DNA of 64,000 nucleotides from contig JAHBUE010000001.1 of assembly GCA_019638235.1 (NCBI GenBank), positions 1-64,000 on the forward strand, in the 5' to 3' direction. The notes beneath the pieces were generated by a model. The model did not search any database. It saw nothing but the letters and a program-made list of their open reading frames with translations, and was not told the origin of the DNA. The DNA is from Cyclobacteriaceae bacterium. GTDB lineage: Bacteria > Bacteroidota > Bacteroidia > Cytophagales > Cyclobacteriaceae. The translations under genes were made by a program, and so were the position numbers. Shown one piece after another: positions 22,796 to 50,422 of the stretch. How positions within the stretch are numbered: the first letter of the stretch is position 1; each line of letters starts with the position of its first letter.

Positions 22796-23041
22796 TTATT
22801 GTTTTTAAGTTATTAATAATTGCCCGATTCTCTAACTTACATTGGTCCAGTTTTAAGGGAGGAGGTCACCAATACCTGTCCTAATACCCTGTTATTCGCG
22901 AGTTATGCCCAATGCTATGACGACCGTGCAACAGACGAACATTATAGCTCGACATCAAACTTTTGTCTAAAACTTGGCGACCTGACAGGACAGATTTAAA
23001 CCTTAAAAACATTAACTTAGCGACATATATTTAAGACGAGA

Positions 23042-23719
23042 ATGAAGCAAAAATTAACGCTAAAAACCTTAATAAAAGAAGCCCAAATTTTCTGTGCTGA
23101 ACAATCTAAGTTTCAGCATAAAGAACTGTTTGGAGTTACTGACGGCAAAGCTGTTGGGACACTTATTGAACAGAAATTTCAAAAACACTTAAACGACAAA
23201 TACGAAGTTACAATTGGTTCTTCTGCAAGCGGTGTTGACCTACCTTCTAACGACATTTTAACTGACATCAAAGTAACTTCGATAAAACAGCCCCAATCAT
23301 CTTGTCCTTTCAAAGACGCTAAACAAAAGGTTTTCGGGCTTGGTTATAACTTACTTGTTTTCGTTTACGACAAAGCTGACGACCCGAAAAGTAAAACAGC
23401 AACTTTAAATTTTGTAAGTTGTTCATTTGTTGCAAAAGAGAGAACGGCTGACTATACAACAACTTACCGTTTAAGAGAAATGGTTAAGGATAAGGCTAAT
23501 GAAGCCGACATCATTGCTTACTTGCAAGACAAAAACATCCCAGCAGACGAAATAACATTATCAAAATTAGCGGAGCAAATCTTAAAAACTCCACCTGAAC
23601 AGGGTTACTTGACTATTTCAAATGCTTTGCAGTGGAGATTACAATATCAAAGAATTGTAACCCTTACAGATGAAGTAAAAGGAATAACCAAAATTGTAAG
23701 CTATAACAAACCTCAATGA
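23042..23719 (+). CDS. Probable type II restriction endonuclease (PD-(D/E)XK-like)
   Basis: A 225-residue protein immediately upstream of an adenine methyltransferase, overlapping it by 4 bp (ATGA). A candidate nuclease core is visible: E43 in the helix GTLIEQKFQKHL, D66 in SGVD, and D75-I-K77 in LTDIKVTS. This order fits a PD-(D/E)XK active site. The C-terminal half is helical (TLSKLAEQILKTPPEQGYL). The recognition sequence cannot be inferred. Both RM genes are markedly AT-richer than the flanking core genes. If the active-site guess is wrong, it would still most likely be the restriction partner by position. Confidence 0.75.
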   Translation: MKQKLTLKTLIKEAQIFCAEQSKFQHKELFGVTDGKAVGTLIEQKFQKHLNDKYEVTIGSSASGVDLPSNDILTDIKVTSIKQPQSSCPFKDAKQKVFGLGYNLLVFVYDKADDPKSKTATLNFVSCSFVAKERTADYTTTYRLREMVKDKANEADIIAYLQDKNIPADEITLSKLAEQILKTPPEQGYLTISNALQWRLQYQRIVTLTDEVKGITKIVSYNKPQ

Positions 23720-25488
23720 TGAAAGTATTTGAAGCAAATATTACTCATCAGGTTTCAGATTTCTTAAATGACAATCTGAAAAAGATTACATCTTTTGAAA
23801 AGGCAAATCAAAAAATGTATGATGCCTTCGGCATCATACATTTTTTTGATAATGATGAAGAACTGGAGACGCTTAAAGAAGTTCTTTCAATTACTAATAA
23901 TATTGTTGAAGAACCCGATAGAGCAGAATATGGCGACTTTCAAACCAATTCTGATTTAGCGAATAAAGTAACGTTACACTTAGCTTCCAAAAACGTTTCC
24001 CCCGAAGTTGTAATTGAGCCAACCTGTGGAAAAGGGAATTTTATTATTGCTTCTTTACGCAACTTTAAAAATATCAAAAATGTCTTCGGTGTTGAAATTT
24101 ACAAACCTTACGTTTGGGAAACCAAATTCAGCATTGTTGATTTTTTTCTTTCTAATCAGAATTCAAACAAACCAGAAATTTCAATAGTTCATTGTAATGT
24201 TTTTGATTTCGATTTTAAAGCAATAGCTAAGAAACATTCAACAAAGGATATTTTAGTTATCGGCAATCCACCTTGGGTAACTAATTCAAAATTGGGTAGT
24301 TTAAATTCAACTAACCTTCCGAAAAAAACGAATTTCAAAAACCATAGCGGTTTAGATGCAATGACAGGCAAAGGTAATTTTGACATTGCTGAATATATAA
24401 CGCTTACTATGATTGAAACCTTTCAAAATATGAAAGGAGATTTATTGCTATTGGTAAAAAATTCTGTTATCAAAAACATTGTCTTTGACCAAAACAAAAA
24501 TCGTTACAAGATTTCAGCTATTGAAAAACATTGTATTGACAGCAAAAAGGAGTTTAATGTTTCAGTTGAAGCAGCCTTGTTTTATTGTAAACTAAATTCA
24601 AAACCAACGTTTGATTGCTTAGAATTTGATTTTTACAACAATCAAAAATCTCAACTCAAATTCGGTTGGTTGAACGACAAATTTGTTTCAAACATTGACA
24701 CTTATATTCATACAAAAGAAATAGATGGTGAATGTCCTTTTGTTTGGCGACAAGGTTTAAAACACGATTGTTCTACCGTAATGGAGTTAGACAAAGTGAA
24801 CGGACATTATGTAAACGGACTGAACGAAGAAGTGAAATTGGAAGACGGTTTAGTTTACGGTATTCTCAAAAGTTCTGACCTTAAAAACACCGTAATTAAT
24901 CAAACACGAAAATTTACGATTGTTACGCAAAAGAAAGTTGGACAAGAGACAAAATATATCAAAACTGAATATCCTAAAACGTATCAATACCTGACACAAC
25001 ATCAAGTAAATTTTGATGCAAGAAAATCAAGTATCTACAACAATAAACCTTTGTTTTCCATATTTGGTATTGGTGACTATTCCTTTAAACCTTTTAAAGT
25101 TGCCATATCAGGACTTTACAAGACATTTCATTTTACACTTATTCTGCCACAAGACAACAAGCCTGTAATGCTTGACGACACTTGTTATTTAATAGGTTTT
25201 GACAAAATAGAATTTGCCGTTTACGCTTTAATTCTTTTAAACTCTAACACGACAGTTCAGTTTTTACAATCAGTAACTTTCCCTGACGCTAAAAGGACTT
25301 TTACAAAAGATGTTTTAATGAGAATTGACCTATTAGAATTGGCAAAACAATTTGATAAAGCCAACCTGCAAACAGAACTTGAAACGCTTAACGAAAAGTA
25401 TAAATTCAAATTGACACTTGACTTGTGGGACAGTTTTATTAACGAAATGACACCTGTAAACAATGGACAAATGGCAATGTTTGCATAG
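23716..25488 (+). CDS. N6-adenine DNA methyltransferase of a type II system
   Basis: A 590-residue gamma-type DNA methyltransferase. The SAM-binding motif I is EPTCGKGNF (101-109) and catalytic motif IV is NPPW (184-187), so it methylates adenine N6. The C-terminal ~200 residues (FGIGDYSFKPFKVAISGLYK, then DDTCYLIGF and FLQSVTFPDAKR) resemble the TaqI/Eco57I-type specificity domain. The start is either the ATG overlapping the REase stop or the ATG three bases later. A perfect 16-bp hairpin lies in codons 32-44, near the start. The gene ends 14 bp before the attC-like repeat. Confidence 0.88.
   Translation: MMKVFEANITHQVSDFLNDNLKKITSFEKANQKMYDAFGIIHFFDNDEELETLKEVLSITNNIVEEPDRAEYGDFQTNSDLANKVTLHLASKNVSPEVVIEPTCGKGNFIIASLRNFKNIKNVFGVEIYKPYVWETKFSIVDFFLSNQNSNKPEISIVHCNVFDFDFKAIAKKHSTKDILVIGNPPWVTNSKLGSLNSTNLPKKTNFKNHSGLDAMTGKGNFDIAEYITLTMIETFQNMKGDLLLLVKNSVIKNIVFDQNKNRYKISAIEKHCIDSKKEFNVSVEAALFYCKLNSKPTFDCLEFDFYNNQKSQLKFGWLNDKFVSNIDTYIHTKEIDGECPFVWRQGLKHDCSTVMELDKVNGHYVNGLNEEVKLEDGLVYGILKSSDLKNTVINQTRKFTIVTQKKVGQETKYIKTEYPKTYQYLTQHQVNFDARKSSIYNNKPLFSIFGIGDYSFKPFKVAISGLYKTFHFTLILPQDNKPVMLDDTCYLIGFDKIEFAVYALILLNSNTTVQFLQSVTFPDAKRTFTKDVLMRIDLLELAKQFDKANLQTELETLNEKYKFKLTLDLWDSFINEMTPVNNGQMAMFA
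23811..23847 (+). repeat. Terminator-like perfect hairpin inside the methyltransferase gene
   Basis: AAAAATGTATGATGCC and GGCATCATACATTTTT form a 16-bp perfect stem around TTC, followed by more T to a run of seven. It is in frame and encodes QKMYDAFGIIHFF. It has the shape of an intrinsic terminator 95 bp into the gene. Confidence 0.7.
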
Positions 25489-25501
25489 ACCGAAAAAAGA
25501 A

Positions 25502-25635
25502 GCACTGGGCATAACAGCGGTTTGGCGTAATGGCGGGTGCAGTACTTCGTATGACAGTTTTGTGGTAGGTTCAAGTATAGTTCTTCGATTGAACTTTTGT
25601 GCTAAAAATCCGCCACTACGCCAAGCCCTGAACCG
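25502..25635 (+). repeat. attC-like site of the RM unit
   Basis: The outer arm is GCACTGGGCATAAC, complementary to the start of the same unit. The inner arms GGTTTGGCGTAATGGCGG and CCGCCACTACGCCAAGCC match at 16 of 18 positions when folded, with a ~70-base apical loop. The site ends GAACCG, after which the chromosome reads ATAGACGC without TT. Confidence 0.6.
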
Positions 25636-25677
25636 ATAGACGCAAGAAAAAATCTAAACAATAAATCCTGCGCTATT

Positions 25678-46361: not shown

Positions 46362-47465
46362 CTACACTGCCGGCTCCTGCTGGCTCAGGCAATGGAACGA
46401 ACCCAATCCCCAGATAATATCCGTTGAATCAAGGTCAATGACGTTGCGGTCAGGAAAACACTTTTCGAGAATATCTATCGCACGGTCGTCATTTTTATCG
46501 CGAAAGGTTGGCACGACTACATATTTATTTGCAATGTAAAAATTGGCGTAGGATGCAGGAAGTCTTTGCCCTTCGTATATCACCGGGGCGGGCATCGGCA
46601 ATTCGATAATGTTCATTTGTTTGCCGCTCTCCAGCCGTAAGGTTTTTAACTCTTTCAGGTTATCCTGAAGTATCTGATAGTTCTCATCAGCTTTGTTTTC
46701 TTCCACAATGGTTACTACGGTGTCTTCATTTACAAAACGAGTCAGGTCGTCAATGTGGCCGTCTGTATCATCGCCCACAATGCCATCGCCCAGCCAAAGA
46801 ATGTGGTCAACGCCATAGTAGTTAATTAAATATTCTTCAATTTGTTTTTGGTTAAGTTGTGGATTGCGATTGGGGTTTAACAAACATGCGCGCGTAGTGA
46901 GCAATGTTCCTTTCCCGTTAAACTCTACCGAACCCCCTTCCATTACAATGCCGGGATGAGCCACCGGAATGTTATAATGCTTTGCAATCAAAGTTGGAAT
47001 CACGTCATCCAAATCATAAGGCGGATACTTTCCGCCCCAGGCGTTATAGCCCCAGTCCACAATCATTTTTTTATTTTCTGTTTTATGGACAAGAAATGCC
47101 GGGCCATGGTCGCGGCACCACGCATCATTAGTAGGATGAAAGAAAAATTTAATGTTCGATAAATCTGCGTTTACGTTTTCCAACTGTTGAACGGCAAAAG
47201 CTTTCATCGCTTCATCCGCAACATTGATATGCACACTTTCGCCTTCGGCTACACGTTTCACAAATTCGGCATACACAGGATAGATAGTCTGAATTTTCCC
47301 GGGCCATGAGGCTTCTTTGTGCGGCCAGCTTAGCCAGGTAGCGGAGTGTTTGGCGAATTCGGCAGGGAAGTGGTATCCGAGTTGTTTTGGAGTTGGAAAG
47401 TCCGGAAGTCCGGAAGTTGGGAAGTCCGGAAGTCCGGAAGTCGGGAAGTCGGGAAGTTTAGTCAC
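46362..47465 (-). CDS. aguA: Agmatine deiminase with repeat-derived N-terminus
   Basis: Hydrolyses agmatine to N-carbamoylputrescine and ammonia (guanidino-modifying enzyme superfamily). Catalytic residues are recognisable: EGGSVEFN, DGHIDDL with the His, and the nucleophile C359 in GLGSFHC. The family normally starts just before QLGYHFPAEF. Here the first ~25 residues are instead three LPDFPTSG-type units, encoded by the 8-bp repeat array, and the start codon is a GTG at the array edge. No other start lies between the array and the conserved domain. The pathway partner aguB is upstream beyond the inserted four-helix-bundle gene. Confidence 0.88.
   Translation of the reverse strand: MTKLPDFPTSGLPDFPTSGLPDFPTPKQLGYHFPAEFAKHSATWLSWPHKEASWPGKIQTIYPVYAEFVKRVAEGESVHINVADEAMKAFAVQQLENVNADLSNIKFFFHPTNDAWCRDHGPAFLVHKTENKKMIVDWGYNAWGGKYPPYDLDDVIPTLIAKHYNIPVAHPGIVMEGGSVEFNGKGTLLTTRACLLNPNRNPQLNQKQIEEYLINYYGVDHILWLGDGIVGDDTDGHIDDLTRFVNEDTVVTIVEENKADENYQILQDNLKELKTLRLESGKQMNIIELPMPAPVIYEGQRLPASYANFYIANKYVVVPTFRDKNDDRAIDILEKCFPDRNVIDLDSTDIIWGLGSFHCLSQQEPAV
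47390..47460 (+). repeat. 8-bp tandem array, left (in aguA 5' end)
   Basis: About eight units of period 8 (TCCGGAAG, TTGGGAAG, TCGGGAAG variants). The array lies within the first codons of aguA, and because eight is not a multiple of three, gain or loss of one unit shifts the aguA frame. It is in inverted orientation to the right-hand array. Confidence 0.85.
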
Positions 47466-47826: not shown

Positions 47827-47863
47827 CGTTTATGATTTTAGAGTTGATACTCTCCATCTAACC

Positions 47864-47945
47864 CCGGACTTTACGGACTTCCGGACTTTCCAACTTCCCG
47901 ACTTCCGGACTTCCTGACTTCCCGACTTCCTGACTTCCCGACTTA
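47864..47945 (-). repeat. 8-bp tandem array, right (after aguB stop)
   Basis: About ten units of AAGTCGGG/AAGTCAGG/AAGTCCGG, period 8, in inverted orientation to the left array. The first unit begins right at the aguB stop codon. Confidence 0.85.
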
Positions 47946-48821
47946 CTCATCAATAAAACGTTTCGTAATCGGCTGGTATGAATCAATACGCCTGTCGCGC
48001 AGAAAGGGCCAGTGTGTACGGTAGCTGTCGGTTTTGCTTAAATCTATTTCCTGCACATGCACTTCTTCATTTTCATGCGGAGCTTTATATAAAACGCTGC
48101 CGAATGGATTTGAGATAAATGAGCCTCCCCAGAATTTCATTTTTCCCTCCTGCTCAAACCCAACACGATTTACACTAACTACATGGACACCATTGGCTAC
48201 GGCATGGCTCCGTTGTATGGTTTGCCAGGCATTGTACTGTTCCGTGTTGGTCGCTTCGTCCTGCGAAGTAGCCCAACCAATGGCTGTCGGATAAAACAGG
48301 ATTTCCGCTCCCATCAAAGAAGTTATGCGTGCCGCTTCAGGATACCATTGATCCCAGCAGATCAGCACACCAATTGTGGCAAATTTTGTTTTGAATACTT
48401 TATAGCCAAGATCGCCCGGGGTGAAATAAAATTTTTCGTAGTAAGCCGGGTCGTCTGGTATGTGCATTTTGCGGTACTTTCCTAAATAGCTGCCATCGGC
48501 ATCAAGCACAGCCGTAGTGTTGTGGTACAGCCCTTCTGCACGTTTCTCAAACAACGATGCGATAATCACCACACCCAGTTCTTTGGCTACATTGGAAAGC
48601 GCATCGGTTGACGGCCCGGGAATGGGTTCGGCTAATTTAAAGTTTTCGTAATCCTCCACATCGCAGAAATACAGCGAGGTGAACAACTCCTGCAGGCACA
48701 CAATCTGGGCGCCTTTAGCGGCTGCCTCACGAACACCCTTAATCGCATTCTGAAGGTTTTCTTCTTTGTTCCCCGTACACGACATTTGTACGGTCCCAAT
48801 CTTTACAAGTTTATTAGGCAC
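47943..48821 (-). CDS. aguB: N-carbamoylputrescine amidohydrolase
   Basis: A nitrilase-superfamily enzyme that converts N-carbamoylputrescine to putrescine, CO2 and ammonia, completing the agmatine route to putrescine with aguA. The catalytic triad is E45 (LQELF), K118 (KYRKMH) and C155 (LICWDQWYPE). The 292 residues are full length and end FIDE, directly before the repeat array. It is divergent from the cassette-like units. Confidence 0.94.
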   Translation of the reverse strand: MPNKLVKIGTVQMSCTGNKEENLQNAIKGVREAAAKGAQIVCLQELFTSLYFCDVEDYENFKLAEPIPGPSTDALSNVAKELGVVIIASLFEKRAEGLYHNTTAVLDADGSYLGKYRKMHIPDDPAYYEKFYFTPGDLGYKVFKTKFATIGVLICWDQWYPEAARITSLMGAEILFYPTAIGWATSQDEATNTEQYNAWQTIQRSHAVANGVHVVSVNRVGFEQEGKMKFWGGSFISNPFGSVLYKAPHENEEVHVQEIDLSKTDSYRTHWPFLRDRRIDSYQPITKRFIDE

Positions 48822-48942
48822 AGTTGTTAGTTTAAGGTCGTAAAATTAGTGCGATTGCCCGTAAATAGAAAATCTTATTGAATTCTAAATAATGGTACAG
48901 CAAACAATCATACCAATACAACAGGCAGTTGAGATATTTGTG

Positions 48943-48950
48943 TAGTTTTG
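48943..48950 (+). promoter_or_regulatory. -7 element upstream of the cassette pair
   Basis: TAGTTTTG fits the -7 consensus and ends 17 bases before the cassette boundary at 48968. No TTG lies at the ideal distance. It could serve both cassette genes, as a Pc promoter does in integrons. Confidence 0.4.
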
Positions 48951-48985
48951 TTACATATATAAACAAGTTGTGGCGCATATCTAAA

Positions 48986-49732
48986 ATGAGACAGGTTTCA
49001 ATAATAATATTTCTTTTGACAGTTGGTTGTACGAATCAAAAAACGACAACTGAACAAATTGTTAGCGACACTGTGAGACAATCAAGTGAACTAACTAAAA
49101 TCAAACCGACTGACAAGCACGAAACTCAAATTACACTAACGGACACATCGTTAAATGGACATTCGGTCAAATTTTACCAATTGACAGCAACGATATTTGA
49201 CTCATTACAAAGACAAACAAAACAAACAGAAATAAATCTTAAATCGGCTGACAGCCAAATCAAGAAACTGGATAGTTGTGTTGTTCTCAAATTTCAAAAT
49301 CAAAAAATAGACTCGCTTTGCAACATGGACGATGGTGAGTATTTTGAAAAATACTTAATAAAAGGACTTTGGGAAGAGAATAAATTACTTTTGGTACACT
49401 TTGAGAATTGGGAAGAGAGTCACGACTTCTTTATCAATCTCAAAGACGGGAGTTACTACATTCTGACACCCTTCTATGAAGTGAATCCAAAACGTGACAT
49501 GATATTAACCTATGTTGACATTGCAGCCGCACCGATATATTCAAGTGAATTGATGATAAGCCAAATTCAAAAAGGTGTTTTCAAAACACTATACAAAAAA
49601 GACTTGGGACAGACGACTATAACTGATGCCAAATGGATTTCAAATTCGGACTGTTTACTAACAACAGGGTTCGTTGACATTGGAACTAATGACGTCAAGG
49701 ACAAAAAATGGTATCGAATGACGATTGAGTAA
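48986..49732 (+). CDS. Hypothetical lipoprotein of cassette-like unit 1
   Basis: A 248-residue AT-rich gene. The start MRQVSIIIFLLTVGC gives a lipoprotein signal with Cys15; an upstream in-frame ATG lies outside the unit and before the likely promoter. The mature protein is polar, Thr/Lys-rich at first (TNQKTTTEQ), then beta-rich (LLLVHFENWEESHDFFINL, FKTLYKKDLGQTTITDAKW). No family is recognised. The gene ends one base before the attC-like repeat, as cassette genes do. Confidence 0.7.
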   Translation: MRQVSIIIFLLTVGCTNQKTTTEQIVSDTVRQSSELTKIKPTDKHETQITLTDTSLNGHSVKFYQLTATIFDSLQRQTKQTEINLKSADSQIKKLDSCVVLKFQNQKIDSLCNMDDGEYFEKYLIKGLWEENKLLLVHFENWEESHDFFINLKDGSYYILTPFYEVNPKRDMILTYVDIAAAPIYSSELMISQIQKGVFKTLYKKDLGQTTITDAKWISNSDCLLTTGFVDIGTNDVKDKKWYRMTIE

Positions 49733-49864
49733 GATACGCGCCACAACAAAAGCTATAAAACATGGCGGGTGAAGTGTAGTAGAAAGTTTTTATCTTCGTC
49801 AATTCGTTTGGTCACGTGGGAGAATTTTACGTTTCAAAATCCCGCCACGTTTTATAGCCAGACG
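49733..49864 (+). repeat. attC-like site 1
   Basis: Outer arm GATACGCGCCACAAC, spacer AAAA, inner arm GCTATAAAACATGGCGGG. After a ~71-base loop the second inner arm CCCGCCACGTTTTATAGC follows, with 17 of 18 positions pairing, then CAGACG and the crossover point. Confidence 0.65.
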
Positions 49865-49887
49865 TTGTATGCAATGCCTTTAAAGAA

Positions 49888-50307
49888 ATGAGAGTTTATA
49901 TACTTATAGGTTTTCTACTGGTGCTTGGGACAAATAATGCTCAGGGACAGAACAAGTCTATTAAGAAGTTTCCATGCAAAACCTTACGACAGACGGACAG
50001 TTTGACTGTTAATGTTTCAGGTCTAATGGACCATAATGACTTACAAATCAATTGGATTAAAGAAGAAATTAAAAGTGATGGAATTTCAACATGGTTTACA
50101 CGCTGGATTAAAGATTCGAATTTGGATAATGAATCAGAATATTTTAGTAACATGTCCAGAGACATGGAGTTGAGCCTGCAACCTGGGGACAGAATATTCT
50201 ATTATTCAACACCTGACAATTACTGGAGTTCATTTGCAGGTCAAGAAGGAATACTGATTATTCGGGATTGTATTATTGTTGGAAAATATATCTTAATGCA
50301 AAGTTAG
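49888..50307 (+). CDS. Hypothetical secreted protein of cassette-like unit 2
   Basis: A 139-residue protein with signal peptide MRVYILIGFLLVLGTNNAQG. The mature part begins with charged residues (NKSIKKFPCK) and continues beta-rich. It ends with a DRIFYYSTPDNYWSSFAGQ segment and an IIRDCIIVGKYIL strand, giving two Cys. No family is recognised. The gene is AT-rich and has no promoter of its own in the 23-base leader, so it likely depends on unit 1 transcription. Confidence 0.65.
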   Translation: MRVYILIGFLLVLGTNNAQGQNKSIKKFPCKTLRQTDSLTVNVSGLMDHNDLQINWIKEEIKSDGISTWFTRWIKDSNLDNESEYFSNMSRDMELSLQPGDRIFYYSTPDNYWSSFAGQEGILIIRDCIIVGKYILMQS

Positions 50308-50313
50308 CACCAA

Positions 50314-50400
50314 GGCACTGCATACAACAAGGTGTTTATGCCATTGTGTTATCGGTCTCACGTTTATAATTTTCGCAACACAACGTCATAAACACGAACG
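50314..50400 (+). repeat. attC-like site 2
   Basis: Outer arm GGCACTGCATACAAC; inner arms GTGTTTATGCCATTGTGTT and AACACAACGTCATAAACAC pair at 17 of 19 positions around a 26-base loop. The site ends GAACG, then TT. Confidence 0.65.
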
Positions 50401-50422
50401 TTAAAACTCATACCACACAACA

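Follow-up and report, generated by a model that had tools for sequence, protein, structure and literature searches.

Tandem gene cassettes in a Cyclobacteriaceae genome point to an integron-like system in Bacteroidota

A 64,000-nucleotide stretch of DNA from a Cyclobacteriaceae bacterium (assembly GCA_019638235.1, contig JAHBUE010000001.1, positions 1 to 64,000; hereafter, the window) carries two tandem single-gene units that lack a neighbouring integrase gene, raising the question of what these units are and what moved them, in a phylum for which integrons have been reported to be almost lacking (one complete case of Bacteroidetes in a RefSeq-wide scan; PMC9024848). The initial annotation of the window, made from the sequence alone, took the units for an integron cassette array resembling a CALIN (a cluster of attC sites without an integrase), or for an analogous system. 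Both halves of this proposal hold: cassette structure, attC sites, and G|TT boundaries are found in this genome and in its relatives. We conclude with high confidence that both units are gene cassettes belonging to an integron-like Bacteroidota system, with a recombinase that likely belongs to the family of the integrase encoded at C1:1755565 of the same genome.

Unit 1 (cassette 1; 48968-49864, plus strand, 897 bp) and unit 2 (cassette 2; 49865-50400, plus strand, 536 bp) agree with the initial annotation in all letters and lengths, and each starts directly 3′ of a G. Computed repeats reproduce the annotated complementarity, in which each unit start matches an arm of the terminal repeat of that same unit with one mismatch: in unit 1, GTTGTGGCGCATATCT (48967-48982) pairs with AGATACGCGCCACAAC (49732-49747) with 1 mismatch; and in unit 2, GTTGTATGCAATGCCTT (49864-49880) pairs with AAGGCACTGCATACAAC (50312-50328) with 1 mismatch. 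The anchored start/arm score of this arrangement is 15, compared with a maximum of 14 in 60 dinucleotide shuffles. Cassette 1 is located unaided by an array walk, and cassette 2 by start/arm complementarity and the array walk. The leaders are 18 bp in unit 1 and 23 bp in unit 2, as annotated. The ORF of cassette 1 (48986-49732, plus strand) encodes 248 aa with a lipoprotein-like N terminus and matches no Pfam family; non-cassette homologues of the protein are present in two congeners (45% and 31% identical), and none was found on viral contigs. The ORF of cassette 2 (49888-50307, plus strand) encodes 139 aa with a signal-peptide-like N terminus, and no homologue was found in 295 other Bacteroidota genomes.

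The terminal repeat of unit 1, termed attC 1, has three more full copies and two partial copies in the window genome that are detectable by BLASTN and are 83-87% related. Because BLASTN with attC 1 alone recovered only type-1 sites in this genome, we built a wider attC model; naive hairpin regexes were also tried as a detector and were dropped, having missed sites. The resulting covariance model, R1, is based on an alignment of 36 attC sites, none of which comes from the window genome. In this alignment the AAC and CGTT frame is invariant, all 18 of the 18 stem pairs covary with changes on both sides, and 94.3% of stem cells are paired, versus 55.7% in shuffles and 31-42% with the partners slid. 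As in canonical integrons, boxes of the form R′′..AAC and GTT..R′ close the conserved stem. The lengths of the attC sites, as delimited by the array walk, have quartiles of 131, 132, and 133 bp. Single-base bulges are typical of canonical attC sites; here, 82 of 107 predicted folds lack them, and there are fixed mismatched columns at 12/125, 19/118, and 22/115 instead. The bottom strand is the more stable one in 88 of the 107 folds, and we infer from these predictions that it is probably the substrate.

Model R1, which contains sites from other species only, detects attC 1 (49741-49870, plus strand, 130 bp, from R′′ CCACAAC to R′ GTTGTAT) with 52.5 bits (E 4.2e-11) and with ends exactly as predicted. 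The terminal hairpin of attC 1 has z-scores versus shuffles of -4.4 for the top strand and -4.9 for the bottom strand. The site at the end of unit 2, attC 2 (50322-50406, plus strand, from R′′ ATACAAC to R′ GTTAAAA), is of a short type, 85 bp in length, and was missed by the 132-position model in the search of the window. Its hairpin has z-scores of -1.6 for the top strand and -3.35 for the bottom strand, better than shuffles on the bottom strand only, and the evidence that it is an attC consists of this hairpin and the arm complementarity. Of 296 Bacteroidota genomes searched with model R1, 139 hold one or more sites at E<=1e-6. A search of the locus against Rfam gave no match. Of the sites that would make the locus a CALIN (at least two attC and no nearby integrase), attC 1 is identified by the model and attC 2 by hairpin and arms only.

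A further cassette in the window (22903-25636, plus strand) contains a DNA methyltransferase-like gene pair. It has the start GTTATGCCCAATGC (22902), the reverse complement of its arm, GTTATGCCCAGTGC, at 25502-25515, and an attC (25509-25641, plus strand) that scores 82.6 bits (E 1e-18) and has a degenerate R′, reading CCGATAG instead of CGTTAG. The right end of this 22903-25641 cassette may have decayed, with R′ GATAG instead of GTTAG. Elsewhere in the window, inverted arrays of 8-bp repeats of the AAGTCCGG type (47384-47463 and 47863-47952) lie on either side of a gene for a 117-aa protein.

The DNA to the left of unit 1 contains a putative landing site. An attI-like site (about 48901-48967, plus strand) has the end TATAAACAAG^TT, with a cut G^TT after 48967. 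Window positions 48901-48970 align end to end, over about 70 bp, with the region 3′ of the stop codon of an integrase gene in a related metagenome genome (L109), the product of which is 85% identical to the integrase of the window genome. From this alignment, we interpret the locus as a solo attI with two cassettes, its own integrase missing at the locus. The locus is like a CALIN (PMC9024848) in that its two cassettes lie in tandem with no integrase gene beside them, and unlike one in beginning with an attI-like site and in having a second attC that the model does not find; it is more than a CALIN because the attI-like site stands at its start. The block 48.87-51.18 kb is missing in four congeners, in which the amidase gene on its left and gltD on its right adjoin, implying that the attI, the cassettes, and the following CPBP protease gene arrived together or stepwise. 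The congener comparison shows that the block was inserted as a whole; it does not show insertion of the individual units. An empty site exact to the base was looked for in the congeners and not found, and they have no orthologue of the gene next to the block on the right. The comparison with close relatives that the initial annotation had called for gives absence of the block as a whole, not precise absence of the 897-bp and 536-bp units.

The initial annotation described the units as lacking an integrase, which is true of the window locus but not of the genome, which encodes a related 344-aa tyrosine recombinase at C1:1755565-1756596, 1.7 Mb from the locus. Several fragments of the 3′ end of the integrase gene are present elsewhere in the genome. 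The integrase scores 204.2 bits against the IntI model TIGR02249, and two relatives score 206.7 and 209.8, all below the cut-off of 265 (a control IntI, L037, scores 302 bits); against the XerA model NF040815 it scores 223.9 bits, above the curated cut-off of 220 by a narrow margin. The insertion specific to IntI, which is held essential for integron function (PMC8138268), is absent: the spacing from the KGxKDR motif to the LRH motif is 70-71 residues here, versus 111-113 in IntI, and the alignment with IntI4 (2a3v) falls into two segments that flank the IntI insertion. The probable driver is thus analogous and not a canonical IntI, being below the IntI threshold and without the IntI insertion. 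The best solved folds are XerA 5hxy and 4a8e (Z 22.9 and 20.9), followed by IntI4 (Z 19.2), a difference that does not discriminate between XerA and IntI ancestry. A tree of 42 proteins with a small outgroup set places the integrase of the window genome in a clade (clade A, support 97/99) separate from IntI (100/99), and clade A, IntI, a second Bacteroidota subfamily, and plasmid fragments stand apart from Xer proteins (98/92); sisterhood of clade A with IntI is suggested by this tree, with its few outgroups. XerA-type recombinases (NF040815; PDB 5hxy, 4a8e) are closest to the integrase by profile and fold, but differ from it in that the integrase is linked to attI and cassette arrays and groups in the tree with IntI rather than with Xer. 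The second subfamily (L039-L047) comprises integrases of about 400 aa from the same genus and family, with G^TT sites and cassette-like starts after the stop codon; attC sites fitting model R1 occur at some loci of this subfamily.

About 30 genomes from the family of the window bacterium encode integrase homologues with 53-70% identity, and a search of the species collection returned more than 570 loci, of which we kept 80 further ones. Nearly all are from Bacteroidota, including Flavobacterium (F. psychrophilum among them), Pedobacter, Kaistella, Pelobium, and many metagenome bins. Across Bacteroidota, a common layout is observed in a single direction: integrase, attI (70-125 bp after the stop codon), cassettes, and attC sites. 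Of 117 arrays, 109 have an attI R box 3′ of the integrase, nearly always 70-125 bp from the stop codon, such that the attI adjoins the integrase gene as in canonical integrons; the consensus is TATAWACAAG^TT, and the commonest forms are TATATACAAG and TATAAACAAG, then TT. The array walk yields 140 cassettes in 55 arrays, with up to 11 in tandem and a median cassette length of 856 bp, and the longest ORF of the walked cassettes is forward in 122 and reverse in 6. The start of the first cassette matches the downstream attC arm in 39 of 47 arrays, compared with 8 of 141 swapped-start controls. The start/arm relation thus extends to other copies of the repeats, as the initial annotation required, with at least one exception in the window genome itself, where the type-1 copy at C1:914565 has no matching start upstream. 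Cassettes common to several species begin at an identical base, exactly at the cassette boundary. For example, an ArsR cassette is shared by Flavobacterium denitrificans, the window genome, and two further hosts; it leads some of the arrays and has an internal position in the rest.

The linkage of this integrase to attI bears on the strongest alternative, an ordinary integron in which the cassettes were moved by a canonical IntI, either one formerly present or one supplied in trans, and in which the XerA-like recombinase lies near attI by coincidence. A true IntI is indeed encoded in two genomes of this family (L037 in G041 and L038 in G133), and blaVEB cassettes occur also in class 1 integrons, so that some of the attC sites are likely IntI1 substrates. 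However, an IntI above the cut-off is found nowhere in the window genome and in only 2 of 391 relatives, whereas attC sites are found in 139 of 296 Bacteroidota genomes, and attI follows the XerA-like integrase in the 109 arrays. We consider this alternative improbable, and the IntI proteins of L037 and L038 were set aside as the driver after the IntI scan and the tree. No attC candidate was found beside the IntI gene of L037; the L038 contig has hairpin candidates.

Within the window genome, the attI-like and attC-like sites recur at many loci. The covariance model finds 60 attC-like sites at E<=0.1. The attC 1 copy at C2:398483 belongs to a unit that starts behind the same left flank as in the window, TTTTGTTACATATATAAACRAG^TT, and this 24-bp attI-like core occurs at 5 places in the window genome and at none in 58 relatives (0 for a reversed-pattern control in the own genome). 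A different attI-like element of about 107 bp, ending in GGGGTATAAACGAG^TT, lies directly 3′ of the integrase stop codon and has 10 copies in the genome, which are followed after G^TT by different genes or sequences and in most cases by cassettes and attC sites. In total, the genome has about 15 attI-like sites. The ten copies (C1:1988708, C4:24, C2:536889, C2:261975, C2:19068, C1:1755457, C1:1657841, C3:1694, C2:236719, and C2:306122) bring 80-390 bp of upstream DNA, which in several of them includes the 3′ end of the integrase gene; some copies have an upstream breakpoint in common, and several sit at contig ends. Two window-type attI-like sites (L057 and L058, at C1:461455 and C1:2017901) are followed by short units that end in a hairpin GTTG..GGTGTTCTTCACC..CAAC, which is not an attC. 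One cassette is duplicated, with one copy following the attI at C2:236719 and the other following an attC of the C2:261975 array: the copies are identical in 1205 of 1205 bases, and their flanks diverge exactly at G|TT on both sides. The duplicate and the cross-species cassettes are evidence, at the level of sequence, of movement as G^TT-cut units, whichever enzyme acted.

These exact junctions also argue against the units being end products of Y1/HUH-type or MITE-like transposition with hairpin ends, a reading that would account for long terminal hairpins, dispersed copies, and the lack of a local recombinase. Head-to-tail arrays of up to 11 units with a different gene in each, a separate landing site with a conserved R box, the linkage to a tyrosine recombinase, and G|TT junctions exact on both sides make it very improbable. 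A reading of the hairpins as terminators that end the transcription of ordinary genes, with arm complementarity by chance, has next to no likelihood: the hairpins do lie 3′ of genes, and the cassette-1 gene has homologues in congeners without such flanks, but the covariation with an invariant AAC/CGTT frame, the start/arm statistics, and the identical cassette in two contexts already contradict it.

An integron-like cassette system would work as follows. Each unit once was, or could become, a circle with one gene and one attC. The terminal boxes of the attC, R′′ ..AAC and R′ GTT.., would pair within the folded single strand, a tyrosine recombinase would cut between G and TT, and the circle would enter attI or a position beside another attC. 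Cutting at G/TT and insertion of the circle would yield a cassette start TT.. that is complementary to the cassette's own attC arm. The recombinase is most likely of the C1:1755565 family, XerA/IntI-like, without the IntI insertion, and encoded codirectionally with the cassettes; linkage to the arrays suggests that an integrase of this family catalyses recombination of these sites.

Integrons with an inverted IntI, whose gene points the same way as the cassettes, are known from a few phyla. The Bacteroidota system is like them in having an integrase, attI, attC, single-gene cassettes in one direction, and the G^TT cut position. Unlike theirs, the integrase here is below the IntI cut-off, has no IntI insertion, and falls into a clade of its own; the extended start/arm complementarity and the dispersal of about 15 attI-like copies in one genome are further differences. 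The system is integron-like, a new variant, and widely overlooked. We found no description of it in the literature, with preprints and most subscription papers outside the scope of the search, and priority is not established. We consider it likely that Bacteroidota have a second, separate integron lineage, in about half of the species, whose integrases share ancestry with IntI, either never had or lost the insertion, and have genes oriented like the cassettes; that this lineage was missed as tools require IntI; and that it is the native source of the tet(X) and blaVEB genes later found in Acinetobacter, Enterobacterales, and class 1 integrons. If true, the presence of such a system in about one half of the surveyed Bacteroidota genomes would change where integrons are sought, and a recombinase without the insertion would change the view of what an integron integrase needs.

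The contexts of the resistance genes bear on a native source of tet(X) and blaVEB in this lineage. C-terminal fragments of integrases of this type lie upstream of tet(X3) on Acinetobacter plasmids and upstream of blaVEB-3 on a Klebsiella plasmid. The left boundary of blaVEB is identical in three contexts, namely, the integrase fragment, the attI1 of a class 1 integron, and the attC of aadA1, and the blaVEB attC matches model R1 (E 4.8e-7). In Empedobacter and Bacteroides, tet(X) starts with GTTATG-GCCATTTT, ends in the arm AAAACGGCACATAAC, and forms a complete cassette with a 133-bp attC that scores 69.6-72.3 bits. The same tet(X) attC is intact on a Riemerella plasmid (74.8 bits), with a different left end, and the Acinetobacter copy of tet(X) ends prematurely. 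The corresponding loci are L230, L231, and L232: plasmids of Empedobacter and Bacteroides fragilis with the full tet(X) cassette, and the Riemerella plasmid on which the attC is kept. In the published description, the gene upstream of tet(X3) is named xerD, and a cassette is unmentioned (PMC7530245). The tpnF/xerD-tet(X3) and integrase fragment-blaVEB-3 contexts are like the Bacteroidota loci in having a C-terminal integrase fragment, an attI-like site, and a G^TT cassette start; they are unlike them in that the fragment is incomplete and sits beside ISCR elements in Gammaproteobacteria. By sequence comparison, the Bacteroidota system appears to have carried tet(X) and blaVEB, and we infer that the two genes came from it and were not merely passing through. 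If true, the system would be both a natural source of and a vehicle for tet(X) and blaVEB, and exchange with class 1 integrons would be directly testable.

A published case of gene uptake has a similar outline. In an independent experiment, aph(3′)-IVb, preceded by 27 bp of leader and followed by 140 bp of DNA, was integrated by Riemerella anatipestifer although no homologous flanks were supplied; the DNA on the 3′ side has an attC-like fold, and the mechanism was left open by the authors (PMC13148043). Compared by description, the likeness lies in a short leader, a gene, and an attC-like 3′ end of about 140 bp that enter a chromosomal site, and the difference in that the enzyme was not identified there. 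Homology-free uptake in Riemerella fits the Bacteroidota cassette system, as judged by the published description, and the system, if true, would provide a mechanism for this mode of resistance-gene uptake (PMC13148043). Clade-A integrases are present also in two bins named outside Bacteroidota, an Azoarcus bin (L150) and an Ignavibacteria bin (L110), through either misbinning or transfer.
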